Part shown: positions 2,958 to 44,999 of the stretch, in pieces
Position numbering within the stretch: the stretch's first letter is position 1
How the letters are laid out: the number at the start of each line of letters is the position of its first letter
From: a virus
DNA length: 64,000 bases
Direction: 5' to 3' (one strand)
IMG/VR virus record: IMGVR_UViG_3300034198_009894
Coordinates: 1-64,000 of that record
Position numbers and translations under genes: made by a program
Notes under the pieces: generated by a model
What the model was told of the DNA's origin: nothing
What the model saw: the letters and a program-made list of their open reading frames with translations, nothing else
The model's database searches: none

Positions 2958-3542
2958 TTACTGCTTATTATCGCGTTTTTTTGAATAAAAAGTGTGATTG
3001 CCTACTGTCATAACTGGATCGTAATTCCATTTTGGTTTTACGGTATGATTATGAAAGAACAATACATTTGTTGGCACAATATCACTCCAGGCGTTTTCTG
3101 TTAATACTTTACGCGCTATATCTTCTGCTTGACTATATTTGACATTTTTAACGGGAGTTTCTTTTCCTTCGCATACCCAACTAAATTGACAAGTTACTCG
3201 TTCTTGTTCATCAATGATTACTGAGTTTTTAGCGTAAATTACAGCACATGGATTTTTTTCGAATCCGTGTTTAATACGATTCATTACTACACGAGCAACC
3301 AGTACTTGACCCATAAATGGTTCAGAACCAGCTTCGTGATATATATTAGTTGCCATACATCTTAGATATTCTTTATTTAACACCGTTATATTATGCTTGC
3401 CGCTGGGTGAAGTAGCATAATGCTGTTCGTGTATTAGCTTATTGTTGTATTTAATTCCAATATTGAATGCCACTAGTGCCACCATCACTAGCAAAATTAA
3501 ATAAAAAAGATAAGTCACTATCTTAGAGATAGAATTTTTCAT
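2958..3542 (-). CDS. SleB-type cell-wall hydrolase with N-terminal membrane anchor
   Basis: 194 residues. Residues 8-30 are a hydrophobic helix, a signal anchor or signal-arrest-release segment. The catalytic domain (about 60-190) shows the Hydrolase_2/SleB pattern: NIYHEAGSEP with the catalytic Glu, then VVMNRI, CQFSW, LFFHN, and GNHTFY near the end. Members cleave the glycan strands of peptidoglycan. A membrane anchor suggests export through the host Sec system, with timing independent of a canonical holin or in addition to the GH19 enzyme at 24095-24709. It follows the large virion gene in the operon. Confidence 0.85.
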   Translation of the reverse strand: MKNSISKIVTYLFYLILLVMVALVAFNIGIKYNNKLIHEQHYATSPSGKHNITVLNKEYLRCMATNIYHEAGSEPFMGQVLVARVVMNRIKHGFEKNPCAVIYAKNSVIIDEQERVTCQFSWVCEGKETPVKNVKYSQAEDIARKVLTENAWSDIVPTNVLFFHNHTVKPKWNYDPVMTVGNHTFYSKKRDNKQ

Positions 3543-3553
3543 AGTAAAACTCC

Positions 3554-6472
3554 TTAGTTATTCCAGCAGTCGCAATTACATTGCGTAACGTTTTCTATTG
3601 CTTCTTCTACAGTGTAACTACTGTCGTCAGTGGTGACTAAGTGATCGGGAACTGGATCGTTTCCAGTCCACGGCGACCCGGCAAAACTTCCAGGAACTGT
3701 GGTGTCTCCTAATCTAGCTGATACAGGGGGTGGATCAATAATAACTGGAATACATCCATTAGCAGTACTGTAACCACCTCCACCGTTAACTACGTTAATC
3801 TTAGTTACTCTGCTCCCTTCAACCACTGCCTCTGCTATTGCCCCACTTCCAGCGCCACCAAAAACTCCACCATATGGTCCTATTCTTACTGCGGGTGGTT
3901 GTTGATCACTATACCCACTACCGGCTGAAGTTACTGTAATTGATGATATTCCACCTGATTCATTAAGTTGACAGGCCTCGGCAGTAGCATTATTTAAGTT
4001 TAGACTATCTGGTATATCATTATCTAACTCTCCGCCCACATTTAGTATGCGATTTGCGTTGCGAGTTTCTCGCATCATAGCTACTAATGACTGACCGCCA
4101 AGCGTTGAGGTATCTGCTATTGCTTCCAGTACACTGACCGCTTCTCCGTATTCTGTTTGAGTTGCGTAATCATACACTGACTTGACAAAAGTTTCAAACT
4201 CAGTACCATCTATAGTTCCAAATACTTCATCATTATTAGGTATAGCGATTGCTAGTGCTCTCTGCTCAGCAGATAGTTGTTCACCTATTTTATTCCAGTA
4301 GTAATTTAACTTATCAATTGTATCAACGTTTAACGTGCTTATTTTTAGAATTTCTAAATTGGCAGCATCTATTAAATTCTGTACACTAATTTCGTATTCT
4401 GTTTCTTCTACGTAGACTAAGGAAGAATTGTTTATTTTTTCAGTGAGTTGAGTTGTAAGTGTAACTACGGTATTCAGCCCATCAAAATTGGTATTCAATA
4501 CAGTATATGCGTTGTACCCATTAAAATTGAATGAAATTTTTGTTCCGTTGGGCAAAATTTGTCTAAGATCGTGTTTCAATAGAATTGAATTTTCACCTGC
4601 TTCGTGTGTGTTTACTGTAGAAAATAGAGTGTACGTATATTTTGAGTCCCACTGAGTGGATGGATTAATTACTGTGTCCAAGTATCCGCGACCACGACTA
4701 ATGAGAGCCCAACCATTATTCAATGATTTTTGATAAATTTTCTCGTATACATTCTTTAACGATTCTGTACTAACTGCTTTCAACGACTCTATTATTTTTT
4801 GATAGTAATCTTCATATGGAACTGCGCTAACAGCTCCAAAAAAATCAGTTTGCTTGTATGTTCCATTACTTCCGCTACCAAGAGCTATTTTTGACAAATT
4901 TTCATTGACGTCACTGATGTTAACAGTACTTCCGTCCGCGCTGTTTATTAATGGCAAAGCTTTGTCTACTACTTCTAGATTTGCTATTGTTTGTGCCAGC
5001 TTTTCTGTATTCATTAGCCGAATGTTTTTTATTTGATTCATAGTCATCATAAATGCTCCACAAGCTAATGACAAATCGTCGGCTACTATTCCAGATAGAT
5101 ATTCTCCCCAATTTTGTATTCTAGTGTTTACACTATCTTCTATGTAAATAAAATCATAAATCTTACTTGTTCCCGGATTATTGATGTCATATTTTGGTAT
5201 AGTAAGAGTTTTATAGCTAGTGGGGAACATTTTTTTAGGATTCATTAAATCAACTAGCGAAGTTAAATTTTCGGTAGTACAATTTAAAATTAGCTTCACG
5301 GCGTTCAAATCGTTGCCGCGTATTAAATCCAACGCAGTCCATATTTTCTTTTCTTGATCCACAGTTGGAGTGTATGACGCTCCAAATATTTTATCAAGTT
5401 CTATTGTTGTTAGATCCGTGTATAGCAATGCCAACTTGATACTGTCTGTTATGGCTTTGTTTGATTGAAGATTTAACAAAAACTTACTTGGAAGACCAAA
5501 TTTGTGAATGTTTGACATATCCAGAGATTTGCCTAGTCTTATCATGTCGTTTCCAAACAACTTGAACGACAGTGTAACTCCTGCTATATCACTGGTAGTC
5601 AAGTCATTCATATTGCTATAGTTGCCTCTTAAAAAACTCTTGCTGTTCACGAGCGAGGAAATGCTACTATTTTTAGACTGTTTCCATATATGAGTTTGCT
5701 GAAAGCTTTTTACTATTTCAGCATATTGATTAATTCTTCTAGCAGTATGATCCGACCACAGTTCGTAGTAGGCTTGTCTAGCTATCGTGGCTATAAACCC
5801 ATTCTTAAAATATTCATCGTACTCTATTAAATTTTGATCACGCTGTCTTATGTCCGGGCGTGGGAAATAAGCAATGCTATAACTATCTAGCTCTTTTTGA
5901 AACGTATTTCTAGCAGGCCATCCAGTTATCCATCCATATGGATGATTCCATTGATGTTCATGTTGATATGATCCTGCCTCCGTAGAGCCCCACAAATTGT
6001 AGACGTAGCTATGTTTGCCGCTTGATGGATATCCAACTGGAGGATACGTATCATTTACAATATTTAATGTGTTGGATACTACTGTAGTATTTCCAAATTC
6101 ATCCACGACTTTGTAATCCCAAGTTCCATATCCAGCATAGGTTGTCTTGAACGAGTCGGGTCTACAGTTTCCAAGAGCGGGACAATTTATTCTATCGTCG
6201 GATTGAATGTTAATTGGTCTACCAATTTTAATAAGATTTCTGTATAAATTTACACTTGTGATTTGATTGCTGGCTAACTCATAGAAATTTTTTATTGCTA
6301 GAGTTATCTTATTAAGTACAGTCTGAGTTACTATCTCGCCCTGTATATATGATGATGGAGCCCAAGTGCCCTGAAATTTTTTAGCAGACAGTGCTAGTGA
6401 AAATACACTATTTTTTTCTAATTGTGTAAGTACATTTATACCAAGAGGGGTTAGTTTTCCGCTATAACTCAT
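3554..6472 (-). CDS. Large virion structural protein (tail or fibre)
   Basis: 972 residues with no recognised enzymatic motif. The N-terminal half contains Trp/His/Gly-rich stretches (residues 165-190); the middle is helical; the C-terminal 150 residues carry two GSGY/GGGGYS-type beta repeats (SAGSGYSDQQ and NGGGGYSTAN) followed by a Cys-rich tail (QCNCDCWNN). Such GSGY repeats are typical of phage and marine-phage structural proteins. Its start overlaps the PAAR gene stop by 4 nt, so it is probably made with the tail tip. A tail or baseplate component is my inference. Confidence 0.65.
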   Translation of the reverse strand: MSYSGKLTPLGINVLTQLEKNSVFSLALSAKKFQGTWAPSSYIQGEIVTQTVLNKITLAIKNFYELASNQITSVNLYRNLIKIGRPINIQSDDRINCPALGNCRPDSFKTTYAGYGTWDYKVVDEFGNTTVVSNTLNIVNDTYPPVGYPSSGKHSYVYNLWGSTEAGSYQHEHQWNHPYGWITGWPARNTFQKELDSYSIAYFPRPDIRQRDQNLIEYDEYFKNGFIATIARQAYYELWSDHTARRINQYAEIVKSFQQTHIWKQSKNSSISSLVNSKSFLRGNYSNMNDLTTSDIAGVTLSFKLFGNDMIRLGKSLDMSNIHKFGLPSKFLLNLQSNKAITDSIKLALLYTDLTTIELDKIFGASYTPTVDQEKKIWTALDLIRGNDLNAVKLILNCTTENLTSLVDLMNPKKMFPTSYKTLTIPKYDINNPGTSKIYDFIYIEDSVNTRIQNWGEYLSGIVADDLSLACGAFMMTMNQIKNIRLMNTEKLAQTIANLEVVDKALPLINSADGSTVNISDVNENLSKIALGSGSNGTYKQTDFFGAVSAVPYEDYYQKIIESLKAVSTESLKNVYEKIYQKSLNNGWALISRGRGYLDTVINPSTQWDSKYTYTLFSTVNTHEAGENSILLKHDLRQILPNGTKISFNFNGYNAYTVLNTNFDGLNTVVTLTTQLTEKINNSSLVYVEETEYEISVQNLIDAANLEILKISTLNVDTIDKLNYYWNKIGEQLSAEQRALAIAIPNNDEVFGTIDGTEFETFVKSVYDYATQTEYGEAVSVLEAIADTSTLGGQSLVAMMRETRNANRILNVGGELDNDIPDSLNLNNATAEACQLNESGGISSITVTSAGSGYSDQQPPAVRIGPYGGVFGGAGSGAIAEAVVEGSRVTKINVVNGGGGYSTANGCIPVIIDPPPVSARLGDTTVPGSFAGSPWTGNDPVPDHLVTTDDSSYTVEEAIENVTQCNCDCWNN

Positions 6473-6747
6473 GATACTATTACGTCTTCGCTACCTTCTA
6501 CTATACTGTGTCCGCAACTATTACCACTGGTAACACGAAGAACTTTCGCGCCCTCGCAAATAACGTCTTCACTGGCGCTAGTAGTAACCGCTCTTTTATG
6601 TTTACTTTTTCTAGAGGGTCTATGAGCAGATATAGGACTAACGTGTAAACCCACTGGCTTTCCGTTGCAGACTACTTCGCTAGCGCCTCGCTCTATAGCG
6701 CCGCCCTCTTGATTTTTATCGCCCTTTCTGCTCAGTTTATTACCCAT
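6469..6747 (-). CDS. PAAR-like spike-tip protein (T4 gp5.4-like)
   Basis: 92 residues, close to T4 gp5.4 in length. It shows the repeating PAAR pattern of short beta hairpins: GAIERGASEVVCNGKPVGLH, then SEDVICEGAKVLRVTSG, NSCGH and IVEGSEDVIV. His/Cys residues (HVSPISAH, CGH) could bind the metal that sharpens the cone. PAAR proteins cap the central spike that pierces the outer membrane. The next gene (3554-6472) overlaps by 4 nt. Confidence 0.75.
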   Translation of the reverse strand: MGNKLSRKGDKNQEGGAIERGASEVVCNGKPVGLHVSPISAHRPSRKSKHKRAVTTSASEDVICEGAKVLRVTSGNSCGHSIVEGSEDVIVS

Positions 6748-6748
6748 C

Positions 6749-7051
6749 TTATCCCATAATAATTTTTTTACTAGTTGTTGCTATACCAGTGGTAGCCTCA
6801 ATATACTTCATACGTACTTGATCAGCAGTAACACAATACATAGTGACACTATTAGTATTTAGCACTACGTTTTTGTCTTGTTCGGCCGTAAACATACTGG
6901 GAATTAATCCCATACCTTGATGATTAGGTGCTACGCTTAGTGGCTCAGCAAGCTCAATATAATGATCATCTATTGCCACTACTTTGCCAATGACTTCTTC
7001 GCCAGAATTTAGCTTGAAGGTCACAACCTCGTTTAATTCAACGTTCTTCAT
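6749..7051 (-). CDS. Sm-like fold phage protein
   Basis: 100 residues. The N-terminal 50 residues (VTFKLNSGEEVIGKVVAIDD, then YIELAEPLSV) have the strand-turn pattern of an Sm/LSm barrel. The middle (QGMGLIPSMF) and end (KYIEATTGI, KKIIMG) match a protein conserved in T4-like cyanophages and pelagiphages. Whether it binds RNA, like Hfq, is unknown. It overlaps the glutaredoxin gene by 4 nt, so it is co-translated with redox and RNR genes, but it also sits next to tail genes. Confidence 0.65.
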   Translation of the reverse strand: MKNVELNEVVTFKLNSGEEVIGKVVAIDDHYIELAEPLSVAPNHQGMGLIPSMFTAEQDKNVVLNTNSVTMYCVTADQVRMKYIEATTGIATTSKKIIMG

Positions 7052-8755: not shown

Positions 8756-9361
8756 TCATAATTTCTTACTTGCTAACACGATCTGACAAATATGTTCCAA
8801 ACGTTCCACATGTTCAAAAGCACGCCACGGACTAGTATCAACCGCAACCACTCCATGACGATCAATCCCTACAATATGATTGTCTACAAACCCATTACTC
8901 TTCAAGCCCAACGCAGGTATAGTAGCATCTGCTAATTTCTGACTGATGGGCGGAACGTCTGTAACATTTGAGCCTACCCTTGTATATCTGCCCAATTCTG
9001 GGAATTCTTTAACCAATTCATTTAACTTTATACCAGCGTACATAGCAGCCACTGTGTAGGTGGGATGTAGATGTAATACTATTCTGACCTCTGTGTCAGT
9101 GTGCTTTTGAAGCCCGTAATGTAATGGAATTTCTCCTGACGGTTTTAACGCACTACTTAGATCAGTGTAGGGTAGTGCTCTATTTTCGGATATACTCCAT
9201 TTTATAAACATTTCTGGCTGTAGCGTTTGCTTTCTAATACCACTTGGCGTGATGTACATATGATCACGATCATGCCAACGAATGCTGGCATTGCCATCTC
9301 TGGCAGTAATCCAGTTTCGCTTATATGCTTCTACAAATATTTCGCTAATAGTTTCTAACAT
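8756..9361 (-). CDS. Class II aldolase/adducin-family enzyme
   Basis: 201 residues, the normal length of fuculose-phosphate aldolase, ribulose-phosphate 4-epimerase and MtnB-type dehydratases. Visible family motifs are DGNASIRW near the start (phosphate-binding loop), PSGEIPLHYGL with the catalytic acid, HLHPTY with two zinc-binding His, and a third His in the C-terminal HVERLEH. The substrate cannot be told from sequence. It sits between nrdA-C and nrdB with gaps of about 10 nt, so it is co-expressed with nucleotide synthesis. This is an auxiliary metabolic gene of unusual placement. Confidence 0.85.
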   Translation of the reverse strand: MLETISEIFVEAYKRNWITARDGNASIRWHDRDHMYITPSGIRKQTLQPEMFIKWSISENRALPYTDLSSALKPSGEIPLHYGLQKHTDTEVRIVLHLHPTYTVAAMYAGIKLNELVKEFPELGRYTRVGSNVTDVPPISQKLADATIPALGLKSNGFVDNHIVGIDRHGVVAVDTSPWRAFEHVERLEHICQIVLASKKL

Positions 9362-9370
9362 AATTCTTTC

Positions 9371-11206
9371 TTAAAGTTTGCATGCGATGCAATCCGCATC
9401 TTCCTCTTCAACCGGAGGAGTAAATTGTATGACATTCTCTGTCTTGTCTGCCAGAGCGGCTTTTGCGCCCATCTTGTTGATCAAGCTGTAGTACAGACTC
9501 TTACCGCCCCAATGATTGTACAACATTAAGTTCTTAGCAATCAAGGTAGCTGGTATCTTGCCGCCTTCAAAATGAGCCGGATTATAGAATGTGTTTGTAC
9601 TGATACTTTGATCCACGTATGCTGCCAATACTGCTGCTGTTTTTAGATAGTCTACACAATCGGTTTGGTCCCACATTAGTTGATAGCGATTCTTTAGACG
9701 CTTATAGTCAGGCACTACTTGAACAAATGACCCCGCTTTACTTTCTTTGACACTGATCAATTCCATTGGCAACTCAATCCCGTTAGTACTGTTCAACACT
9801 ACTGAACTACTTTCTACCGGAGCGATAGCCATTAATGTGGCGTTACGAATGCCACTCTTGAGTAGTCGTGCGCGTAGTGATTCCCAATCTAGCGATGGTG
9901 TGAAGTCTGTCAACTCATTGACACCCACTGCGCGGCGCTCCCATGGGAATACACCCTTACCATACCACGTATGTTCACTGCGACCACAACTGCCACGTTC
10001 CTCCGCCAGTTCAATGCTGGCCTCAGTGAGATAATATGCTTGATGCTCCATCCAACGCTTGACTTCAGCAAGTGCTTCTGGTGAACCATACTTCAGACCC
10101 CGCTTGGCATGCCAGTATGCTAGATTAGTAATTCCTATGCCTAGCGGTTCAAAATCACTGTTAGCTAGTTTACTCTGTACACTCAGGAAATCTTGATAAC
10201 TCAGTAGACTGCTCAGACTACGAACCAGTGTGCGACAACTCTTACGCATGTCTTGTGGATTACGGAACGCGCCCCAGTTCTGGCTGCCCAGTGTACATAA
10301 CGAGATACGCCCATTTTCATCTTCTAGTCTCTGAAATGGTTTTGTTGGAAGAAGAATCTCAGCACATAGATTTGACATATAAATTGGATCAACCTCTGTG
10401 TCAAATGATCCTTGATTGATAACATTGTCAATGTTGACCATATAGATACGACCAGTGTCTGTGCGCTCTTTTAGTATTCCGTTCTTGAAGATTTCTTCTG
10501 CTGATAACACTTTACGTTTCTTTGTAGCATCAGCCTCATACTTAACATAGAGTTCTTCAAATCGCTGTGTGTTACGATAGTATGCTTCGTACAGGTCTGG
10601 CACCTCATGCGGATCAAATAGGGTAATGTTTTCACTGTTCTTATATCTGCGCCAGAATAACTTGCTAACTACAACACCATAGTCTAACTGTCGGACACGC
10701 GTTTCTTCTGTGCCTTGGTTGTTCTTGAGTACAATAAAGTCTTCGAACTGGTAGTGCCAAATAGGTAGATACACAGTGCAGCTAGCATTCCGAATGCCGC
10801 CCTGGCTATTGTGCGTCAATACCATAGGACCATTTTCACAATCGGATGCGAAAAAAGTATGCTCATCTTCTACTGTTATATCTATATAATTAGTAGAATT
10901 TTTTTGGCCCACATCACATGCAAGCAATCTTGTAAAACCATGCTCAGTCAAAATTCTATCATTAATAGTCAACTCTTTTGGCTTCTTTTGAGAAAAACCA
11001 TTTTCCCATACCATAAAAGGATGATTTGTCGAACAATTAATTACCGTACCATTTTCCAATTCAACCCTCACCTGGTCATGTTCTGGAACAATAGTATTCC
11101 ATTTATCAGTTACTGTTTTAAAAACGATGTTTCTATTTTCGTCCAGTGTTTTGATTTTCATGCCTACTTGGAGGTCTTTTATTTGAATTTTTTTAGTAAT
11201 CGCCAT
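9371..11206 (-). CDS. nrdA-C: Split-intein C-fragment fused to NrdA C-terminal extein
   Basis: 611 residues. Residues 1-133 are intein: block B-like INCSTNHPFMV (about 56-66), block F YIDITVEDEHTFFAS (107-121), and block G ending MVLTHN at 133. Residue 134 is the +1 Ser, beginning SQGGIR of NrdA. The remaining 478 residues are the NrdA C-terminal part, with the barrel motifs, SVKESKAG, and the redox tail ending DADCIACKL. A ribosome-binding site (AAGGA) is present, and the start overlaps the nuclease gene by 14 nt. Activity should need trans-splicing with the product of 12338-13291. Confidence 0.92.
   Translation of the reverse strand: MAITKKIQIKDLQVGMKIKTLDENRNIVFKTVTDKWNTIVPEHDQVRVELENGTVINCSTNHPFMVWENGFSQKKPKELTINDRILTEHGFTRLLACDVGQKNSTNYIDITVEDEHTFFASDCENGPMVLTHNSQGGIRNASCTVYLPIWHYQFEDFIVLKNNQGTEETRVRQLDYGVVVSKLFWRRYKNSENITLFDPHEVPDLYEAYYRNTQRFEELYVKYEADATKKRKVLSAEEIFKNGILKERTDTGRIYMVNIDNVINQGSFDTEVDPIYMSNLCAEILLPTKPFQRLEDENGRISLCTLGSQNWGAFRNPQDMRKSCRTLVRSLSSLLSYQDFLSVQSKLANSDFEPLGIGITNLAYWHAKRGLKYGSPEALAEVKRWMEHQAYYLTEASIELAEERGSCGRSEHTWYGKGVFPWERRAVGVNELTDFTPSLDWESLRARLLKSGIRNATLMAIAPVESSSVVLNSTNGIELPMELISVKESKAGSFVQVVPDYKRLKNRYQLMWDQTDCVDYLKTAAVLAAYVDQSISTNTFYNPAHFEGGKIPATLIAKNLMLYNHWGGKSLYYSLINKMGAKAALADKTENVIQFTPPVEEEDADCIACKL
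10808..11206 (-). other. Intein C-fragment (133 aa) coding segment
   Basis: Encodes the C-intein from Met1 to the terminal His-Asn, followed at 10805-10807 by the Ser that accepts the splice. It contains blocks B, F and G but no endonuclease domain. It is unusually long for a C-fragment because the break lies very near the intein N-terminus. Confidence 0.88.
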
Positions 11207-12293
11207 TTTGATGTTGTTCCTTTGTTATCACTTTAATGTCTGGAAATTTTTTTGACATATCATGTTGCTTTGCTTTTAATACTGTTTTGCCATTTCTGGT
11301 TTTTCTATAATAGATATCCAATAAGTTCTTTGATTTAAAGAATAAATCATCAACTATGTAGAAACACTTGGTGGATAAGTTTGCGTAACTTTCGCTATTG
11401 GCATAATACTCTTCTGATGAAATTTGCATATTTTTTCTGTGTAGTAATGAATATACCGCAATTCGCTCTTCATTGGGATGTTTGTAAATCGTTGAATCAT
11501 ACTCATCTTTGGATATCATCCGCTTTTCGCCTGTTCTTCTATCAATGGCTTTAAATTCACCATGTGTTACTCCCACGTACTCGCTGTCCTCTTTGTAAAA
11601 TTCTGAAGCATCAACTATAGAAATTTCGCCAGTCTTTTTATTCTTGGCCGAAACTTTGCCCGTAGTAATACCAATATATCTCTCGTTTGAATAGAACTCG
11701 TCTTTTGGTATTCTTTTGGATTTCCCGGTTATGCTATCAATGCACATCACATAATCTTTGAATTCAGTGGTGTGAAGCATGGGATCATAGTCAACGACTT
11801 TAATTTTTTTAATTTCTCCTGACTCGGTTCTTATGTTCATCATACCGCTTGATATATGTTTGTGATTTCCAGTTGAATATTCTTCAACCGAAACTCTATA
11901 AATTGTACCATCATCCGATCTACATAAAGTAGAACCAGCTCCGCAGTTAGTACCGCCAGCATTTATCACATTGTAAAATAATGGGTTTTTGCCAACATTA
12001 AATTTTTCGTGATACGCCTTTTCTGCATCAAAAGCGTCTGCTCTCGTAGAGAAGTATTCTACATAAATTTTAAATAATTCTGGATTGGTTTTCATTCGAT
12101 CAACAAAATCAACAACAGTTGAACTAGAAAAATATCTAGAAAGTAAATCATGGGCATTAGTGCCCTCAACGCCCCTAGATCCAGAATAATATTTACCGTG
12201 TATTGTATCATACACTGTATAACAATAATAAATCGAATTTAGCAACATGTTTGTTTTTTGTCCGCCGTATGTTTCATATAGATATTTTGTCAT
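11193..12293 (-). CDS. GIY-YIG homing endonuclease between the nrdA halves
   Basis: I chose the ATG at 12293 because the Shine-Dalgarno GAGGGAG precedes it; an upstream ATG at 12308 lies inside the hairpin stem. The product is 366 residues. The nuclease core is near the start: YYCYTVYDTIHGKYYSGSR, a GIY-YIG variant. A large C-terminal region is built of roughly 33-residue repeats with the pattern TGE/TGK ... EFY/EYY ... YIG/YVG, probably modular DNA contacts. It is free-standing, not fused in the intein. Its stop overlaps the nrdA-C start. Confidence 0.82.
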   Translation of the reverse strand: MTKYLYETYGGQKTNMLLNSIYYCYTVYDTIHGKYYSGSRGVEGTNAHDLLSRYFSSSTVVDFVDRMKTNPELFKIYVEYFSTRADAFDAEKAYHEKFNVGKNPLFYNVINAGGTNCGAGSTLCRSDDGTIYRVSVEEYSTGNHKHISSGMMNIRTESGEIKKIKVVDYDPMLHTTEFKDYVMCIDSITGKSKRIPKDEFYSNERYIGITTGKVSAKNKKTGEISIVDASEFYKEDSEYVGVTHGEFKAIDRRTGEKRMISKDEYDSTIYKHPNEERIAVYSLLHRKNMQISSEEYYANSESYANLSTKCFYIVDDLFFKSKNLLDIYYRKTRNGKTVLKAKQHDMSKKFPDIKVITKEQHQNGDY

Positions 12294-12295
12294 TT

Positions 12296-12329
12296 CGTAC
12301 TCCCTCATAGTTATTTATGAAGGGGTACG
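12296..12329 (-). promoter_or_regulatory. RBS-sequestering hairpin containing a late promoter
   Basis: Minus-strand positions 12329-12317 pair with 12308-12296 over 13 positions (one A-C mismatch, one G-U) around an 8-nt loop. The 3' arm contains the nuclease Shine-Dalgarno GAGGGAG. The late octamer CATAAATA occupies 12312-12319, covering the loop and the end of the 5' arm. An RNA started from it would lack the 5' arm and free the ribosome-binding site. Confidence 0.7.
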
Positions 12330-12337
12330 AAAAACAC

Positions 12338-13291
12338 TCAGATATCGTTGTTTTTTTTATCTTCTTCGACTAAAACTTCGACCCACGTATCTGGAGTAAC
12401 ACAACAACTACGTAGATCGCCGTACCACTTCTTTAGGAACGGAATCAATCCAGTGTGCTTTATTTCACCGTTACGAATTGGTGCGCCGACTGGACGAATT
12501 CGTCCAATTTCCAATCCGATGCCAGCACGTTTACTAGCATACTTTGCCATCATTTCACCAGCCGCGAAAATGCTGTCGAGAGTATCGTCTGCGCTAATAA
12601 GTACACAACTACTAAACTGCTTAGTAGTAGTGCCAAGACCAGCCAACACAGGTGTAGCCAGTGTAAAGTGCCCTTCACTAGCACATTCATAATATTCTTT
12701 AACATATTTCAATCTTTTTTCTTTTGGTTCCGAGTGAAATGCGGTTGCGGCGGCGATAGCGTATCGTACTTGCGGAGTTTCGTAGATTTGACCCGTGCTA
12801 CGATTTTGAACAAGATATTTTTCGCATAGTTGAGCAATTGCCGCATATGTATACTTTTCATCTTTACTATGATCAATGAATAGATCAATGATATTCCATT
12901 CATCTTGAGTGTACCAATCAAGCAATTCAGGAGTGTATAGTCCCGCTTCTACATTTCGTTTAACTATATCATATAGTTTTGGAGGATCATAGTCGTTATA
13001 CACTTCTTTACGCAACATGCTTACACGCTGTCTGCCGGCCACATATTGATAATTTACGTTGTTGATTTCTGGATTTTCAGTCTCGTCAATCAAATCCACC
13101 ATTGCGTTTAATAGCAATTGATCAATTGTTGATGTTTTGATCCCGTCGTGAAATTGAATCTGCGCACGTATTTCAATCATACTGGCACTTACACCATCTA
13201 CCCCGCGACAGGCATGCGCTACTTGTCGTTGAATTTTGGAAATGTCCAACGGAACTCTAGCTCCGTCTCGCTTGATAACGTGTATAGTCAT
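12338..13291 (-). CDS. nrdA-N: NrdA N-terminal extein fused to a short split-intein N-fragment
   Basis: 317 residues. Residues 1-296 are the N-terminal part of the class Ia RNR large subunit: an ATP-cone at 1-90, then the start of the barrel with SSCVLISADDTLDSI (substrate-binding Cys) and GIGLEIGRIRPVGAP. At 296-297 the sequence changes from DLRSC to CVTPDTWVEV, an intein block A with Cys1. After only 21 intein residues it ends in KKNNDI and a stop. Intact homologues continue as RSCSQGG, which is exactly where the 9371-11206 protein resumes. Confidence 0.92.
   Translation of the reverse strand: MTIHVIKRDGARVPLDISKIQRQVAHACRGVDGVSASMIEIRAQIQFHDGIKTSTIDQLLLNAMVDLIDETENPEINNVNYQYVAGRQRVSMLRKEVYNDYDPPKLYDIVKRNVEAGLYTPELLDWYTQDEWNIIDLFIDHSKDEKYTYAAIAQLCEKYLVQNRSTGQIYETPQVRYAIAAATAFHSEPKEKRLKYVKEYYECASEGHFTLATPVLAGLGTTTKQFSSCVLISADDTLDSIFAAGEMMAKYASKRAGIGLEIGRIRPVGAPIRNGEIKHTGLIPFLKKWYGDLRSCCVTPDTWVEVLVEEDKKNNDI
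12341..12403 (-). other. Intein N-fragment (about 21 aa) coding segment
   Basis: Begins with the catalytic Cys1 and block A (CVTPDTWVEV) and ends 21 residues later. Conventional split inteins break after about 100 residues. This early break resembles the atypically split inteins such as AceL-TerL. Confidence 0.85.
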
Positions 13292-13417: not shown

Positions 13418-13425
13418 TATTTATG
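13418..13425 (-). promoter_or_regulatory. Late octamer CATAAATA at end of upstream gene
   Basis: It overlaps the stop codon of the 13421-15031 gene and points to nrdA 126 nt downstream. It could add late transcription of the nrd cluster, including the split-intein halves. Confidence 0.45.
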
Positions 13426-15031
13426 TAACTCTAATGCTCAGACTAGTTTTAGTTTTAACGCTAGCAAAACACGTATTGGTATTGTTATAGGGAGTAACCC
13501 CTACAGCGTAAAATCCAGTTTTAGTGGGGGTTCCAGTAATAGTTACTCTTATAGATGGTGGTAAATTTGAAGAAGTCGGAATAGCAGTTACTGTAGCAGT
13601 GAGTCCACTAGAGATTAAACGTGTTGTGTCTAAATCAGCCGTGGTTGCGTTTCTTATATTTACTATTGTATTAAGCGGTACATTGACTCGCGCTTGTATA
13701 AGCGTGGCGGACGTATATTGGGGGGCGGGGCAATCGGGTGGAGCTACAACTCCGCTTCCGGCACTTACATTTGTAACGTTGGCTACTGCTCCTCCGTTTC
13801 CTAGATTATTAGTAGCATTGACTAGCACATTCCAAGCCTGATTCGTAGTAGTTGGAGTTCCAGTTATTGTTAGCACATAATCAGTTGCTTTAATCTTGCT
13901 TTTTGCGCCACTAAACGTCATAGTAGAGGGCAGACCAGACGCTATAGTAGCGCTAGTGGCATTTTGTATAGTGATAGTTCCGGTATAGGGATAGTTTCTT
14001 TGAAACACCGAGTTTGTATCACTTTGAGTTTTGCTGTTCTTTGATATTTGTCCTACCACTGGGTTTGGAGCCGGAGCGGGCAATACAGTGCCAGCACCCG
14101 CTGATTTAGTAGTACTAACAGAGGTACAAGTGGTTAGCGCATTAGTGGCTACAATGTTAACATTGTAGCTATTAGAACTTGACAGTCGTGGCATTCCACT
14201 AATCGTAAGCAAATAATTAAACCCACTTTTTACTCCAGAATGCGTTATTCCTGATGGCCAAGTTGTAGTTCCGGATGAACTTAATACTGGAGTGGCGTTA
14301 GTGGCATTTTCAATAATTAAAGTTTCCGAGTACGGAACTCCAACAGTAAAACTGTTGGTCTGTAAGTTTGGAATAACAGGGGCGATACAACTAACGGGAG
14401 TAACCTTACCAGTGTTGATAGATACGTCATCTGTGGCAAAGCCCCCTAGATACTGCTCCAAACAGCCTGTTCCAGTATTAGTGGCCCTTACTTTGATATT
14501 GTAGGATTGATTTCCAGTAGTTGGAACTCCAGCTATTAAAAACGTATAATTTCCAGAGATGGCAGATTGTGACTGAACCTCAATGCCAGTTGGAAGTCCA
14601 CTTATAGCTGCGCTAGTAGCATTATTAATTGTAATGCTACTACTAAATTGAGTTCCAACTGTAAAGACCAGAGTTTTTGTAATAGTTCCAATAGTTGGTC
14701 TAGTACATGATGGATAATTAACTGATATACTTCCTGTCCTAGTTGAGCTACATAAACTAACACTACTTATCGTACAGCCTCGTGGGAAATTACAAGCACT
14801 TCCCGTCCAAGTGAAACTACTAGGATTTGCCGGGGCAACTCCAGTGAGCATGTACCCCGTTTGCGCGGTCCATTCGAATTTAGCACCAGGAAGAGTAGTA
14901 TTAAACTGAATTTGAGTTGAAGGGTTAGCTACTACAGGTATACTATATGGCTGACCCGGAGTTAGCGGGCCGACTAGTCTAAGACTAACTTGGCCGGCAC
15001 GAATACAAGGATTATTATTAGAGATAATCAT
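13421..15031 (-). CDS. PIG/Ig-like repeat virion protein, smaller paralogue
   Basis: 536 residues made of about five repeats of roughly 90-100 residues. Each contains the pattern FxxNxPYTGTITIQNAT, then GLP, then YxLTITGTPTTTNQxWNV. This is the putative-Ig (He_PIG, cadherin-like) fold common in phage fibres and adhesins. The first 90 residues differ and may be the attachment domain. It sits directly downstream of its giant paralogue (15052-21588), with its own late octamer overlapping that gene's stop. Probable surface or host-binding role (inference). Confidence 0.75.
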   Translation of the reverse strand: MIISNNNPCIRAGQVSLRLVGPLTPGQPYSIPVVANPSTQIQFNTTLPGAKFEWTAQTGYMLTGVAPANPSSFTWTGSACNFPRGCTISSVSLCSSTRTGSISVNYPSCTRPTIGTITKTLVFTVGTQFSSSITINNATSAAISGLPTGIEVQSQSAISGNYTFLIAGVPTTGNQSYNIKVRATNTGTGCLEQYLGGFATDDVSINTGKVTPVSCIAPVIPNLQTNSFTVGVPYSETLIIENATNATPVLSSSGTTTWPSGITHSGVKSGFNYLLTISGMPRLSSSNSYNVNIVATNALTTCTSVSTTKSAGAGTVLPAPAPNPVVGQISKNSKTQSDTNSVFQRNYPYTGTITIQNATSATIASGLPSTMTFSGAKSKIKATDYVLTITGTPTTTNQAWNVLVNATNNLGNGGAVANVTNVSAGSGVVAPPDCPAPQYTSATLIQARVNVPLNTIVNIRNATTADLDTTRLISSGLTATVTAIPTSSNLPPSIRVTITGTPTKTGFYAVGVTPYNNTNTCFASVKTKTSLSIRVT

Positions 15032-15048
15032 TAGTTTCCTATAAATGT

Positions 15049-15056
15049 TATTTATG
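15049..15056 (-). promoter_or_regulatory. Late promoter octamer CATAAATA
   Basis: 17 nt upstream of the ATG at 15031 and overlapping the TAA of the upstream gene; AGGAA ribosome-binding site follows. Confidence 0.7.
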
Positions 15057-18000
15057 CGCCACCAACTTTACCACTTCCGGCTGGAGCTTCTTCCACAATT
15101 GCTGTAGTACAAGTGCTACTAAAGTTACTTGCTTTTACTATTAACGAATATGACTGTCCGCTGACGGTGGGAGTTCCAGTTAAGGTGATAACATAATTAT
15201 TGCCTGATTTTGCGCCTGTAGCTTTTATTCCACTAGGGAGTCTATTCTTTAAAAATACAAATGACGCTAAGGTGGCATTTGTTACCGTTATACTTCCGTT
15301 ATATGGAACTCCTTTTACAAACACGTTCGGCGCGACAGTTCCTACTACGGGCGTAGTACACGCAGGCTGTTTTGCTACAACTCCTGCTCCTACACTGAAT
15401 TCTGTTATTTGTGCTGCGGCTTTTCCTCCGCCACAAGCATTGGTAGCATTCACAGTTGCGCCCCACGGTTGATCCTCTGTTGTAGGAGTTCCGCTGAGAG
15501 TTAGAACATAATTAGCTCCACTTGGAGCCCCAGTTACTGTTATTCCAGTTGGCAGTCCGCTTATGGTAGCCACTGTTGCTTTGCTTACGGTTATAGTTAC
15601 GGGACCGTAAGCCACATTTCGCTGAAAAGCTGACTGCGTTGTAGTCATTTTTGACACAGACGGAGTATCACATACTGGGGCAGAGGCAACGATACCGTTT
15701 CCTATCTTAACGTCTTTTATTTCTGTGGTGGTTTTTCCACTGCCACAGGCGTTAGTAGCACTAACTGTAGCACTCCATACTTCAGCAGCATCGGTAGGTG
15801 TGCCGCTGATTGTAATTACATAATTACCAGCATTAACAGCTCCAGTCTGCGTGATTCCTTTAGGAAGACCAGTGATTGTAGCTGCGGTCGCTTTGCTTAC
15901 TGTTAGCGTTGCGGGGCCGTATGCTACATTCTTTTGAAACTGAGTGGATGTTAACTGGGCAGCAATCGGAGTATCACATTCTGGTGCCGCCGCAACTGTT
16001 CCACTTCCAATTTGTATGTCTGATACTTCAGCATCGTCATTTCCGCCTTCACAAACATTGGCGGCGCTAGCTTTAATTGTCCAAGAACCAGCAGTAGTTG
16101 GAGTGCCACTGATTGTGAGTACATAATTAGAACCGCTAATTGCCCCAGTGGCAGTAATTCCAGCCGGCATTCCACTTAGTGTGGCAATGGTTGCGTTAGC
16201 TATAGTTAGCGTTGTTGTTGTATATGCTACGTTTCTTTGAAATACTGTGTTAGACAGTAACGGAATATCTGGAGCAGCGCAGCGCGGTGCCCCGAGTACA
16301 GTTCCACTAGCGATTTGTTTATTCAAAAGTTGACCAACAATTCCTCCGCACTCATTCTTGGCGCTGATTATAATTGAGTATGTACCCACTGTTGTAGGAG
16401 TACCACTCAACGTGTAAGTAACACTTGAAGAAGTAGACGTGACGGTTCCATTAATCCCCGGCAATCCATTTATTGTTATTGAAGCGTCCCCGTCCGTTAC
16501 CGGAGAAATTAATATAGTTACTGGACCGTATGGCACGTTCTTTTGAAATTGTGTTTGAGCCAGAGTGGTTGTTACTGTTGGAGTGTCACATTGTGGCGCT
16601 GCTGCCACTGTTCCATTTCCAATTGATATGTCTTTTACTTCAGCGGTTGTTTTTCCTTCGCCGCAAGCGTTGGCCGCACTAACCTTTGCCGCCCAAGTAC
16701 CAGCAGTAGTTGGAGTGCCACTGATTGTGAATACATAATTAGCTCCACTGATTGCTCCCTCGGCAGTAATGCCAGCTGGTAATCCGGTAACTGTAGCAGT
16801 GGTGGCGTTAGTGATGGTTAGAGTTGTTGGTCCATAAGCAGTGCTAACTTGTAGTGCGGTAGACTGTAGTGTTGGCACCGTTGGAGCAACGCAGAGAGGG
16901 GCATCCAAAACTACTCCACTGGAAACCTCAAAATTGTTGATAACCGTTTTTAATTTACCAGAGCCGCAATCATTTGTAGCAGTGACTAATATCTTCCAAC
17001 TTTGCGCTGCGTCAGTTGGCGTGCCGCTGACAGTGAATACATAATTGAGTCCACTAACAGCACCCACAGCAGTAACTCCACTGGGTAGCCCACTTAAAGT
17101 AGCAGTGGTGGCGTTGTTTATAGTTAGAGTTGTCGGACCATACGCTACATTCTTTTGAAAAATTGGAGTAGCAAACGCGCTTATTGTTGGGGTAGTACAT
17201 AGTGGGGCTGGATCTACTTTTCCGCTGCCGGCATTCAAATTACTGACGACGGAAGTAGTTTTTCCTCCACCACAAGCATTTTCTGCTGCTATCACCATAG
17301 CGTATACTTGTCCACTAGTAGTGGGAGTTCCACTTAAGTTAATAACATAGTCAGCTCCATCAACCGCTCCAGTTTGATTTATACCAGTCGGAATAGTTCC
17401 TGTTAATGTTGCTTTTGTGGCATTTTTAACTGTGATTTTTCCCGTATACGCTATTTGTTCCACGAACGTATTTGGATCTACTAATATAACTAGTGGGCTA
17501 GTACAAATTGGAGCTGCGGTTACAGTTCCAGTTCCCACACTTGACCCTATTATTGAAGACTTGGTTTTTCCACCGCCGCAATCATTATCGGCACTTACTA
17601 ATACTTCCCATTTTTGATCGGCAGTTGTAGGGGTACCGCTAACGGTAAATTTGTAATTGACTCCATCTTGTTGTCCAGTGGCTGCTACTCCAGTTGGAAG
17701 TCCACTAATAGTGGCGCCCGTGGCATTAGTGATCGTAATTGTGCCACTATACGCTACATTTCTTTGAAATGCGGTTGCTCCAAAAGTTAGTGATACACTT
17801 GGAACAACACAAAGTGGAGCCGCAGATACCGTACCAGTAAGAACAGTTCTTCTTGAGGTATTAGTACTACAAGTAGAACCACTATTGGTGGCATCCACTA
17901 GTATAGTATATGACTCTATGCTAATAGTAGGTGTACCCGATAACGTTAGTATGTAATTAGCTCCGTTAGCAGCACCCGTACTGGTAATACCAGTTGGGAG

Positions 18001-21000
18001 CCCAGTTATAGTAGCGCTAGTAGCATTAGTTATCGTAACAGACCCACTATAAGCAACGCTTTTTTGAAATTGAGTTGAACTCAGTGTTCCTATAGATGGA
18101 GCGGCACATGGTGGGGCTGCTGCCACTGTTCCTTTACCAATGGGAATATTAGTTATCTCACTAGTAGTTTTTCCTCCACCACACGCATTAGTACCGCTTA
18201 TTGTAGCAGCCCAGGTCTGTGATGCGACCGTAGGAGTTCCACTTAGTGTAAGAACGTAACCATTGTCACTGGCCGCACCGGTTACGGTAATGCCAGTTGG
18301 AAGTCCGCTGATGGTGGCGATAGTTGCGTTAGGTATCGTTAACGTCGCAGAGTATGCTACCGCTGCTTGAAAATTTGTAGAAGAAAGTTGTGAAACAGTT
18401 GGTTTAGTACATAGCGGAGCTGGTCGTACTGTTCCGGAACCAGCCGCTAATGTAGCCGTGGAAGTAGTTTTCCCACCACCACAAGCATTAGTAGCACTTA
18501 CAGATGCTGTCCACGCCTCTTCTGTTGTAGGAGTTCCGCTGAGTGTTAGTACATAATTAGCTCCGCTGACTGCGCCTGTACTAGTAACTCCAGTTGGAAG
18601 TCCAGTTATAGTAGCGCTAGTTGCGTTTGATACAGTGATTGTCTCACCAGTCGCTACATTTTTTTGAAACACTGCTGTCCCTAAACTTGTAGTAGTAGGG
18701 GTTGTACAAGCTGGTGGAGGAGCTACTGTCCCAGATCCCAAATAATTATTAGGGAAAGACAGACTGCTTGACGAATCAACGCAGTTTTTCCCCGAATTTA
18801 TTGCTTGAATTTTTATGTCGTATGCTTGACCGCTTACCGTAGGAGTTCCACTAATAGTGAATACATAGCTGGTTCCACTAGCTGCGCCAGTAGCTGTTAT
18901 TCCAGTTGGTAGTCCAGTTATAGTAGCTGTAGTTGTGTTTTGTAAACCAATGTAACTTGTAAACGCAACGTTGGCTTGAAACTTAAAGACGGTGTAAGTA
19001 GATAATGCTGAACTGGAGCAACCAAATCCTGGGGCGGTTCTAGAAACACCTGTTGATATCGCTTGATCGTTCAGGAAAATAGCATTATCTGGAAAACTGT
19101 AGACTTCTACACCGGTGTAGGTCTCCGCAGCGCGACATATCCCAAATTTAGCTGGAGCGTTGATAGTCATCAATATAGGACCAAATTTTTGATAGGGTAA
19201 CGTTGGGGTTCCTTGAATACTGAATGCTATATGTTCAGGATAACTAGAATTAGCTGGCGCCGGACTGATGGTTATTCCCGTTGGTAGCATAGGTATTCCG
19301 GCTGCGACACTTGCGGAGCTAGTACTAAATATAGCAGACTCGCCATTAATGTAAAAAGTATGATTGTACTCAAATTTTTCTCTAAACATTGGCAGCGGGG
19401 TGGGCTGAGATTTAATGGGGACACAGGGCGATAAATTAGTCACAGTTCCGCTACCAGCACTGATATTGGCAACCGATGATGAAAATTCTTTATCAGCGAG
19501 ATTATTTTCAGCACTCACCGCTATATTATAGGGTTGACTAGTGGAGGTAGGAGTTCCACTAAGTGTAAAAATATAATCGCTGCCACTTGCCGCACCTACA
19601 GCAGTTATTCCAGCAGGAAGCCCGCTTATAGTAGCACTAGTAGCATTGGTGACTTTAACAGTTCCTGTATATTTGGTCTCAATTTTAAAAGAATTAGAAG
19701 AAATGAAGCCGACCGATGGTTTGGGACTAGTTCGTTCCGCTAACGATTTAGTAACAGTACCAGTTCCCGCACTTACGTTAACCAGATTTCTAGGCGGTTC
19801 CTGAGTACAAAACTGAGAGGAAGCATTAACTTTAATATCGTATACTTGACCCCCTTTATTCGGTGTACCAGATAACGTTAGAAGATAATCACGCCCAAAT
19901 GCCTGACCAGTTACAGTAATTCCACTAGGTAAATTGGCTAAATTTTCTTTTGCTATGCCTGCCGTTTGAGCCTGTTTAACAGTAATGCTTCCAGTATACG
20001 CAACACCAGAGGCAAAAGCATTTGGACTTACTGTTTGTACATCTGGATCTATACATTTAATATATCCAGTGGCAATTTGAATGGCAGTCGCAGTATTAGT
20101 AAAACAAGTGCTACCAGTATTAGTTGCGTCAAATCTAATGTTATACGTGGCTCCAGGGGGTCCAGAAGCAGTTCCACTAATTGTTATGCGATATCCAGTT
20201 CCGAACGGTGTTGAACTTGTTGCTGTAATTCCAATTGGAAGACCATATATTTTTGGAGCAGAGGTACAGTTGAATACGTCTATCGTGCCTGTATAAGCAT
20301 CAAATATTCTAAAGTTATTTTCACTTGTAAGAGTCGCAGTTGGTAGTACGCACGAATCGTACTGAACTGTACCGCTACCCGCTGAGCCACTAATAGTATT
20401 AGTTTCAACCCCAGAAACTTCGTTAGTAGCAGTGACTGTAGCTGCCCACGACTCTCCACCGACTGTGGGTTTTCCAGTAATAGTGAATATGTAACTTGTG
20501 CCGCTTCTAACTCCGGTAGCAGTTATTCCAGCTGGGAGTCCAGTTATAGTAGCGCTAGTAGCATTAGATATCGTCAATGTACTATTGTAGTTAAAATTTG
20601 CCTGAAATATAGAGTTGATTTTATCTGGTTGTGATAGTGAGTTAGTCGCTATTTTTCTTATAGTGGGCGCGGTTGCTTTTTCTTTATTCACAGTCCCAGT
20701 TGCCACAGATGTTAATCCGGTACTTGCTTGACCGCATCCACCAGGATTATTAATGGCGTTTATTTTAAAATCAAATATTTGTCCACTAGTAGTTGGAGTT
20801 CCAAGAAATCTAGCTGTAAAAGTAGTGCCAACTTTTGAGTTGGAACTGTATACAACACCAGTTGGTAGTCCAGTAACTGTAATGCCAGTGGCATTTTCTA
20901 TAGTAACATTTCCAGTGTAATACACACCTTTTTGAAATGTAGTATTATCAAGTGTTCCAATTGTTGGAGTGGTACATGGAGTTAGTCCTACCTTGCCCGA

Positions 21001-24728: not shown

Positions 24729-24736
24729 TATTTATG
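24729..24736 (-). promoter_or_regulatory. Late promoter octamer CATAAATA
   Basis: 19 nt upstream of the endolysin ATG at 24709; the ribosome-binding site GAGGAT lies between. Confidence 0.7.
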
Positions 24737-35391: not shown

Positions 35392-35399
35392 TATTTATG
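35392..35399 (-). promoter_or_regulatory. Late promoter octamer CATAAATA
   Basis: 59 nt upstream of the sheath ATG at 35332; AAAGGA ribosome-binding site near the start. Confidence 0.6.
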
Positions 35400-37212: not shown

Positions 37213-37220
37213 TATTTATG
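37213..37220 (-). promoter_or_regulatory. Late promoter octamer CATAAATA
   Basis: 19 nt upstream of the neck gene ATG at 37193. Confidence 0.65.
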
Positions 37221-44991: not shown

Positions 44992-44999
44992 TATTTATG
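44992..44999 (-). promoter_or_regulatory. Late promoter octamer CATAAATA
   Basis: 4 nt upstream of the ATG at 44987. Confidence 0.6.

Follow-up and report, generated by a model that had tools for sequence, protein, structure and literature searches.

Why should a phage carry its ribonucleotide reductase (RNR) gene nrdA in two pieces, and what is the gene between the pieces doing there? The question is raised by a stretch of viral DNA of 64,000 nucleotides (IMG/VR record IMGVR_UViG_3300034198_009894, positions 1 to 64,000; hereafter the window), whose minus strand carries three consecutive open reading frames (ORFs): nrdA-N, a nuclease ORF of 371 aa and nrdA-C. Our analysis argues that nrdA is, with high probability, a fractured gene whose halves encode a trans-splicing class 1 intein split at the S1 site, and that the middle gene encodes a GIY-YIG homing endonuclease. 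The locus anatomy, the homology to contiguous inteins, the predicted fold, the cassette transfer among relatives and the covariation in a hairpin were assessed by comparison of sequences and models; splicing, the cleavage site, late expression and autorepression are what we infer from them.

Anatomy of the nrdA locus and its predicted intein

nrdA-N ends in DLRSC, followed by CVTPDTWVEVLVEEDKKNNDI and a stop codon, and nrdA-C begins with 133 residues ending in LTHN, followed by SQGG. The initial annotation had proposed that the halves fit together exactly at DLRSC|SQGG, with about 21 upstream intein residues (Cys1, block A), about 133 downstream ones (terminal His-Asn, +1 Ser) and a spliced product of about 774 residues, normal for NrdA. 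Coordinates and lengths bear this out: the halves abut without gap or overlap, the intein pieces count 21 and 133 residues, and the predicted spliced protein has 296 + 478 = 774 aa, compared with 772 residues in the intein-free NrdA of Xanthomonas phage X1, which reads DMRSCSQGGIRN across the insertion site. Pfam assigns ATP-cone, Ribonuc_red_lgN and the first part of Ribonuc_red_lgC to the N half, and the remainder of Ribonuc_red_lgC plus Intein_splicing to the C half. The arrangement can be considered real, because a second IMG/VR record (3300032214_000715, 239,163 bp; identical over 12,411 nt to the window record of 153,585 bp) shares it and the gene order recurs in diverged contigs and in KARL-1, an isolated phage; an assembly error or a chance arrangement was accordingly ruled out as unlikely. 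A megablast search of window positions 1-25000 against phage records gave no match.

The intein residues of the window fit class 1, with Cys1, a block B His (NHP), the LTHN end and +1 Ser. In two intein alignments the block B His and the terminal His-Asn are invariant, and of the 35 distinct rows, 30 have Ser and 5 have Cys at +1, although these motifs had a part in selecting the rows. His-Asn also precedes (C)SQGG in all 15 C-fragments of one search and in all 18 of L023-L040, which were found with other peptides. Compared together with 30 extein residues, the window C-fragment shares 49% identity with the contiguous NrdA intein of Shewanella phage Thanatos-2, 47% with the intein of KARL-1 and 44% with that of Vibrio phage SUMAE; the contiguous relative L019 shares 70% intein identity with the window. 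In SUMAE and the window the insertion follows the Cys of the site and +1 is Ser, whereas Thanatos and KARL-1 have it one codon upstream (S|C), with that Cys as the +1 residue. This cysteine presumably belongs to the redox pair in the active site of NrdA. That this intein occurs at one NrdA site both in two pieces and in one (contiguous in Thanatos-1/2, SUMAE and L019) supports the reading of the window pieces as a fractured intein.

A HINT fold is predicted for one contiguous relative, L019, whose model (pLDDT 94.5) matches Ssp DnaB (1mi8; Z 19.4, root-mean-square deviation (rmsd) 1.4, 130 aligned) and VidaL (6vgv; Z 16.9, rmsd 2.5, 131 aligned). The window break aligns with loop 12-19 of this model, between strands 7-11 and 20-24, and on the predicted structure it is located at the S1 site, just after strand beta-2, as in VidaL. 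VidaL and AceL-TerL had both been named as precedents for so early a break; the former holds, being split at S1 like the window, while the latter is split at S2 (PMC13014065). Ratios of nonsynonymous to synonymous substitution rates (dN/dS) of 0.06-0.26 for the C-fragment (nine pairs with finite dS) and of 0.09-0.17 for the nuclease, all rough with dS mostly >1, indicate purifying selection on the intein C-fragments and the nuclease. One-piece and two-piece relatives, structure comparison and conserved residues thus back the original view of a fractured nrdA with an early intein break. In the proposed mechanism, the 21-residue N-fragment would dock on the near-complete 133-residue C-fragment and complete the HINT fold, and the joined intein would splice in trans to release the 774-aa NrdA.

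Relatives at this site were gathered from contigs matching a degenerate junction DNA pattern, from protein searches and from cultured phages, and the counts of the protein-search family scan are lower bounds. The curated set comprises at least 52 rows readable on both sides (including the window and its identical record), which reduce to 35 rows distinct by intein sequence and architecture, with 34 distinct intein sequences. The counts leave out repeat locus ids for a contig already included (L065 and L067 among others), loci that were one-sided or could not be read (L014, L028, L062, L064, L070, L079), weak matches in other genes (L041-L046), pattern matches without the NrdA junction (L076, L091, L093-L097, L099, L100) and the phage records VPALA, IBB_35 and an NC_ duplicate of KARL-1. 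The junction pattern matched 47 viral contigs, 46 of them in NrdA at this site; an N-fragment of 13-25 residues is closed by a stop in 34 of these 46, and an in-frame continuation follows in 12, with L062 reaching the contig end after 23 codons. Among cellular sequences (genome_contigs) the pattern, which misses variants, had two matches, none in NrdA. A scan of viral_contigs with a pattern built on the single nuclease protein returned 14 stretches, one of which encodes a relative, namely the identical record.

Contiguous inteins account for 15 rows (12 distinct) of the curated set and split ones for 37 (23 distinct). The break holds a type A nuclease, the kind found in the window, in 22 rows (10 distinct), a KARL-1-like type B nuclease in 5 (4 distinct), a Vsr-like nuclease in 5 (4 distinct), an HNH nuclease in 1 (1 distinct) and no nuclease in 4 (4 distinct). 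N-fragments of the 23 distinct split rows are 12 to 25 residues long, and those of KARL-1 (12), L085 (13) and L039 (14) fall below the 15-37 residues reported for natural split inteins (PMC13014065). When 50,697 phage records were searched with the C-fragment, 16 matched. Eight of these are NrdA: KARL-1 (two records, split), Thanatos-1, Thanatos-2 and SUMAE (one ORF each), VPALA (one annotated feature) and Campylobacter phage IBB_35 (two records, annotated inteins); the remaining matches are a helicase of a Vibrio phage and a terminase. In the cultured Acinetobacter phage KARL-1 (L003, MH713599, positions 3219-6938), nrdA is split at the same point, with a 12-residue N-fragment (CLTPDTKVEILV), a 299-aa GIY-YIG-type nuclease annotated as hypothetical, a 130-residue C-fragment and +1 Cys. 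Its N-fragment is the shortest natural case encountered in this analysis, and KARL-1 offers a cultured model.

In five further loci (L008, L017, L024, L026, L034) nrdA-C stops early past the first intein, several with intein-like ends, and the sequences suggest a second break or a second intein; the window has no such stop.

Nucleases in the break and movement of the cassette

The initial annotation had placed a free-standing GIY-YIG nuclease gene at the break, and two results speak for it. Y30, Y41, G43, R45, E96 and N113 are invariant in an alignment of seven diverged nucleases (three of type A, KARL-1, L036 and two other phage proteins, one of them annotated GIY-YIG), and the eleven top rows of a structure comparison with the type A model are I-TevI, PD-T4-3 and UvrC (Z 5.2-6.8, all below 8, where a shared arrangement alone may explain a match). 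The closest was I-TevI (1ln0; Z 6.8, rmsd 4.0, 83 aligned), the next unrelated row reaching 3.6. We take Tyr, Tyr, Gly, Arg, Glu and Asn to be the GIY-YIG catalytic residues, and PD-T4-3 to be a GIY-YIG protein. PHROGs matched the type A nuclease to homing endonuclease (E 2e-4) and HNH endonuclease (E 2e-3). Foldseek with the nuclease model gave no nuclease match at E <0.3 (best E 0.33), and searching PDB sequences with a profile of the aligned nucleases returned only mS46 (E 0.019).

The nucleases in the break differ between relatives. L039 has a weak Pfam GIY-YIG match (E 0.027). For the Vsr-like relatives (L021, L053, L075, L087), the label comes from Pfam matches of L021, both below cut-off (Vsr, E 0.019; PvuRts1I-like_N, E 0.0022). 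A DUF7487 module is common to KARL-1, L036 and L039 on the GIY-YIG side and to the Vsr-like L021, so that one DNA-binding module may serve different catalytic domains. L048 is labelled HNH from a Pfam match barely above cut-off (21.5 vs 21.4 bits); the EEHENGKN tail of type A at the end of its gene suggests that one nuclease replaced another in situ. In 16 of the 19 distinct nuclease-bearing loci, the nuclease stop is located in the same ACTAA or ACTAG of the first C-fragment codons. The break of L053 and L086 contains a 917-aa ORF that resembles two Vsr-like nucleases in one frame, with start features recurring in its second half.

The middle gene would be a GIY-YIG homing endonuclease that forms one mobile cassette with both intein pieces, and this cassette would spread into intein-free nrdA at the conserved RSC|SQGG codons. 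Comparisons among relatives are consistent with this. The cassettes of L015 and L017 are 98.9% identical over 1590 nt; their N-exteins are 78% identical distant from the site and 97% in the last 30 nt, and their C-exteins 90% in the first 30 nt and 70-84% thereafter. L027 and L031 have a cassette identity of 100% and an N-extein identity of 78%. Such near-identical cassettes in N-exteins that are only 78% alike indicate that split intein and nuclease move as a unit in these relatives. Similarly, between L015 and L069, whose cassette is like that of L017, synonymous divergence is saturated over 127 N-extein codons and 0.03 in the C-fragment and nuclease. The window exteins are nearest to L072 (84%, 87%), while its intein is nearest to L090 (72%; L072, 65%).

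Intein-free nrdA alleles occur in at least 120 contigs, and all 80 examined are open within 150 nt on each side. Among the matches listed, the allele nearest to an intein-bearing locus is 88%/84% identical to the L025 flanks, and the one nearest to the window 80%/75%. In L081 and L089, a type A split intein and nuclease reside in an NrdA extein (FQSAVKSC) that belongs to a different lineage and is 50% identical to the window, likely a transfer between NrdA lineages judging by sequence.

Leader of the nuclease gene

The nuclease probably starts at its second ATG (12293), 6-13 nt past GAGGGAG. For the 53-nt leader of the window, the predicted folding energy is -22.7 kcal/mol (z -6.42), and its 11-bp stem is backed by nine leaders from ten distinct type A loci, the L027 leader being equal to that of L025: 94.9% of cells are paired, whereas slid versions reach no more than 61.6%. 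Both partners changed in four pairs, and the covariation score exceeded 500 of 500 shuffles; a further measure, the number of further pair types, was not above shuffles (73/500). Nine of the ten distinct type A leaders contain CATAAATA or TATAAATA, which is missing in L069. On the window minus strand, six of eight copies of the late motif lie at most 70 nt upstream of an ORF start, an area that makes up 4.4% of positions, compared with 2/7, 2/5 and 0/17 for the control motifs AATAAATA, GATAAATA and [CT]AAAAATA. This enrichment may partly reflect AT-rich upstream DNA, and genome-wide the motif is not commoner than its reversal (28 vs 35). Further CATAAATA copies at most 70 nt upstream of minus-strand ORF starts are located at 15049-15056, 24729-24736, 35392-35399, 37213-37220 and 44992-44999; by sequence, the CATAAATA copies are likely T4-type late promoters of the window phage.

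In the frame corresponding to the C-extein, a frame picked after seeing the copy, the 3' arm of the stem together with the start codon reads GG[IMLV]RN in nine of the ten type A loci, the window having EGVRN. Scored against the insertion site, type A leaders reach 9-12 of 14, the relatives 10-12 and the window 9. ORF starts served as the control because the target copy overlaps the ribosome-binding site and the start codon: three of 245 in eleven sequences reach 9 or 10, one being the L008 nuclease. The leaders of L055 (17/19 nt) and L081 (17/21) match their own C-extein best, and those of L039, L085, L027 and the window show no such match. The type B leaders of L036, L039 and L085 contain a 12-of-13 match to the first C-extein codons (QGG[IV]RG), five bases after the stop begins, which was reached in 3, 1 and 1 of 3000 first-order resamplings, respectively. 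No target copy was found in the leaders of the Vsr-like (4/4 distinct) and HNH (1/1) nucleases or of KARL-1. From their sequence, the leader copies could be operators or, instead, insertion scars.

These features suggest that the nuclease probably appears late in infection. The hairpin would hide its start on read-through transcripts, a late promoter at the hairpin tip would yield transcripts without the left arm, and the nuclease may repress itself through the partial target copy in its leader, as I-TevI does. For I-TevI, a hairpin, a late promoter and an operator resembling its homing site at 15/20 nt are described, and SegB and Aeh1 mobE likewise have a hairpin over the ribosome-binding site with a late promoter just upstream (PMC2988022). 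The window differs from all three in that its expression control is a prediction and its nuclease gene lies within a split intein gene. Should the leader copies be operators, sequence alone would predict where the nuclease cuts. The coordinates of the elements are listed below.

Elements of the nrdA locus in the window (positions of the 64,000-nucleotide stretch)
Element	Position	Strand	Description
nrdA-N, whole ORF	12338-13291	(-)	317 aa = 296 extein + 21 intein residues
nrdA-N, N-extein codons	12404..13291	(-)	296 aa; ATP-cone and N-terminal NrdA domains; ends RSC
Predicted intein N-fragment	12341..12403	(-)	21 codons: Cys1, block A, strand beta-2; stop codon 12338-12340
Predicted nuclease leader hairpin	12288..12336	(-)	encloses ribosome-binding site and second ATG
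Late-promoter-like motif	12312..12319	(-)	CATAAATA, at hairpin tip
Possible partial copy of nrdA insertion site	12290..12309	(-)	EGVRN; weak in the window itself
GIY-YIG-type nuclease gene	11193..12308	(-)	371 aa (366 aa from second ATG); final 14 nt overlap nrdA-C
GIY-YIG-like domain	11934..12233	(-)	~residues 26-125; invariant Y30, Y41, G43, R45, E96, N113
nrdA-C, whole ORF	9371-11206	(-)	611 aa = 133 intein + 478 extein residues
Predicted intein C-fragment	10808..11206	(-)	133 codons; His-Asn end
nrdA-C, C-extein codons	9374..10807	(-)	478 aa; +1 Ser; stop codon 9371-9373

Alternative explanations, known systems and history of the split

A gene in pieces does not require splicing. In phage Aeh1, mobE splits nrdA and the pieces form an active enzyme (PMC3653736, PMC2988022), and the NrdA halves of the window might assemble in the same way, with the intein pieces acting as docking tails only, a role that purifying selection on these pieces would also fit. 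This is unlikely, as Cys1, the block B His, the terminal His-Asn and +1 Ser or Cys are all kept, contiguous relatives must splice to obtain a normal NrdA, and the window halves, unlike those of Aeh1, carry intein pieces at the break. Less probable still is a decaying gene, broken by insertion of the nuclease and on its way to a pseudogene without a functional product. Both nrdA halves are open, intein and nuclease are under purifying selection, N-extein dN stays at 0.08-0.27 with dS at saturation in most pairs, and the same break is kept in 23 distinct loci, four of them after nuclease loss; these observations outweigh the frequent second break further down nrdA-C among relatives and the degenerating intein-bearing nrdA described in Campylobacter phages (PMC3653736). 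Finally, group I introns are frequent in phage RNR genes (PMC3653736), and the nuclease could lie inside a group I or II intron whose intein-like ends are incidental. We consider splicing at the RNA level extremely improbable: at Rfam gathering scores a tRNA was the only match in the window and no intron was detected, only 29 nt separate nrdA-N from the nuclease ORF, which in turn overlaps nrdA-C by 14 nt, and the ends of the window intein pieces align with a complete intein.

The fractured-gene interpretation, with its mobile GIY-YIG nuclease, also has to accommodate a number of observations that weigh against it. Pfam Intein_splicing scored the C-fragment alone at 30.6 bits (E 3.5e-7), short of the 35.8-bit cut-off. 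Pfam did not detect GIY-YIG in the window nuclease and left type A unnamed, one of the two PHROG matches is labelled HNH, the nuclease model is weak (mean pLDDT 61.9), and its Z values all lie in the range given above as open to a shared arrangement. Regarding mobility, the identical tract of L027 and L031 extends into the C-extein, no near-identical copy of the window cassette was found in another extein, and the evidence for transfer comes from relatives, apart from the extein/intein mismatch of the window with L072. The target copy of the window is weak, two of the other 244 scored ORF starts, the L008 nuclease aside, reaching 9 of 14 too, and the best local match of its leader to its own C-extein is elsewhere in the leader.

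Several parts of the fractured nrdA have known counterparts. VidaL and PolB16 OarG are natural S1-split inteins, broken just past strand beta-2 with short N-fragments (16 and 15 aa), VidaL using cysteine; the window differs in its host protein NrdA, the nuclease gene in the break and its 21-aa N-fragment (12-25 in the family) (PMC13014065). AceL TerL and GOS TerL likewise have short N-fragments (25 and 37 aa), but are split later, at S2 after the first helix, and belong to terminase genes (PMC13014065, PMC11766414). AceL NrdHF is a phage-like, fractured RNR beta gene broken within a split intein with a putative GIY-YIG homing endonuclease in the break, so that the nuclease pairing, suspected initially to be new, has a precedent in kind; AceL NrdHF differs from the window in subunit, in its class 3 intein without Cys1 and in a break at the usual site (98 + 48 aa) (PMC7891396). 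In Aeh1, a free-standing nuclease gene breaks a phage nrdA as well, but this nuclease is of the HNH type, the break is later (first piece 473 aa), no intein is reported and the pieces work unspliced (PMC3653736, PMC2988022). The ICP1 LAGLIDADG NrdA intein (PMC10448857) also lies in a phage NrdA, and the Thanatos-1/2 and SUMAE inteins occupy the same site or one codon upstream, but all of these reside in one unbroken gene.

S1-split inteins, fractured genes, a GIY-YIG gene in a fractured RNR beta gene and the unspliced split NrdA of Aeh1 are therefore already known. Dassa reportedly described, in 2009, genes that are interrupted inside a split intein and hold a free-standing nuclease gene at the interruption. 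The window nrdA is of this kind, but has an early S1 break and a GIY-YIG-like nuclease instead of a Vsr-like one; the Vsr-like nucleases of L021, L075, L087 and L053 presumably resemble the Dassa family. An S1-split NrdA intein was not found in the literature searched, which leaves most subscription papers outside, and within the same limits neither nuclease turnover at such a break nor an intein in KARL-1 was found. The window is not unique, belonging to a family that includes the cultured KARL-1.

With regard to the history of the split, the nuclease-less loci L013, L060, L074 and L090 keep 3' pieces of a type A gene (18 to 140 nt) before nrdA-C, and L060 and L008 are 98-100% alike on both sides of the deletion; the split therefore persists without a nuclease. 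Conversely, the contiguous L049, L088 and L080 carry an internal MVKTKK or MEKTKK where split relatives begin nrdA-C, and L080 groups with the split L072 in the intein tree (100/99). We read their sequences as probable re-fusions, an ancestral internal Met, as in the contiguous L038 (MNTKK), being the alternative. Of the 31 inner branches of this tree, 5 are well supported, while support stays below 80% in 19. The labels for contiguous and split rows are mixed ('cis', 10 changes vs a shuffled mean of 10.2), and the well-supported branches force at least three changes of the contiguous state.

These observations can be joined into a broader scenario, which we hold to be about equally likely right or wrong as a whole. 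The loop after strand beta-2 of the NrdA intein would be a reusable slot for mobile nucleases, and the early break would let the intein tolerate any gene landing there. Four nuclease types would have used this slot and swapped within it, because the L048 HNH gene keeps EEHENGKN and KARL-type GIY-YIG and Vsr-like nucleases share DUF7487. The split would outlive nuclease loss and could be undone by re-fusion, split intein and nuclease would home as one cassette, and the type A and most type B leaders would carry the target copy as an operator. For the origin of split inteins, an insertion site that displays contiguous, split with nuclease, split without nuclease and apparently re-fused forms makes the order of steps testable. 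In addition, N-fragments of 12-25 residues are short enough for chemical synthesis and protein labelling, with KARL-1 as a cultured source.

Two neighboring regions of the window complete the picture of the locus. Following nrdA-C, a class II aldolase/adducin-type gene (8756-9361, minus strand; Pfam E 3.3e-27) precedes nrdB. On the other side, 13421-21588 (minus strand) holds two adjacent ORFs of 536 and 2178 aa with repeat units of ~85-90 aa (NATSATI.GLP.GI), which are possibly structural or adhesion proteins.

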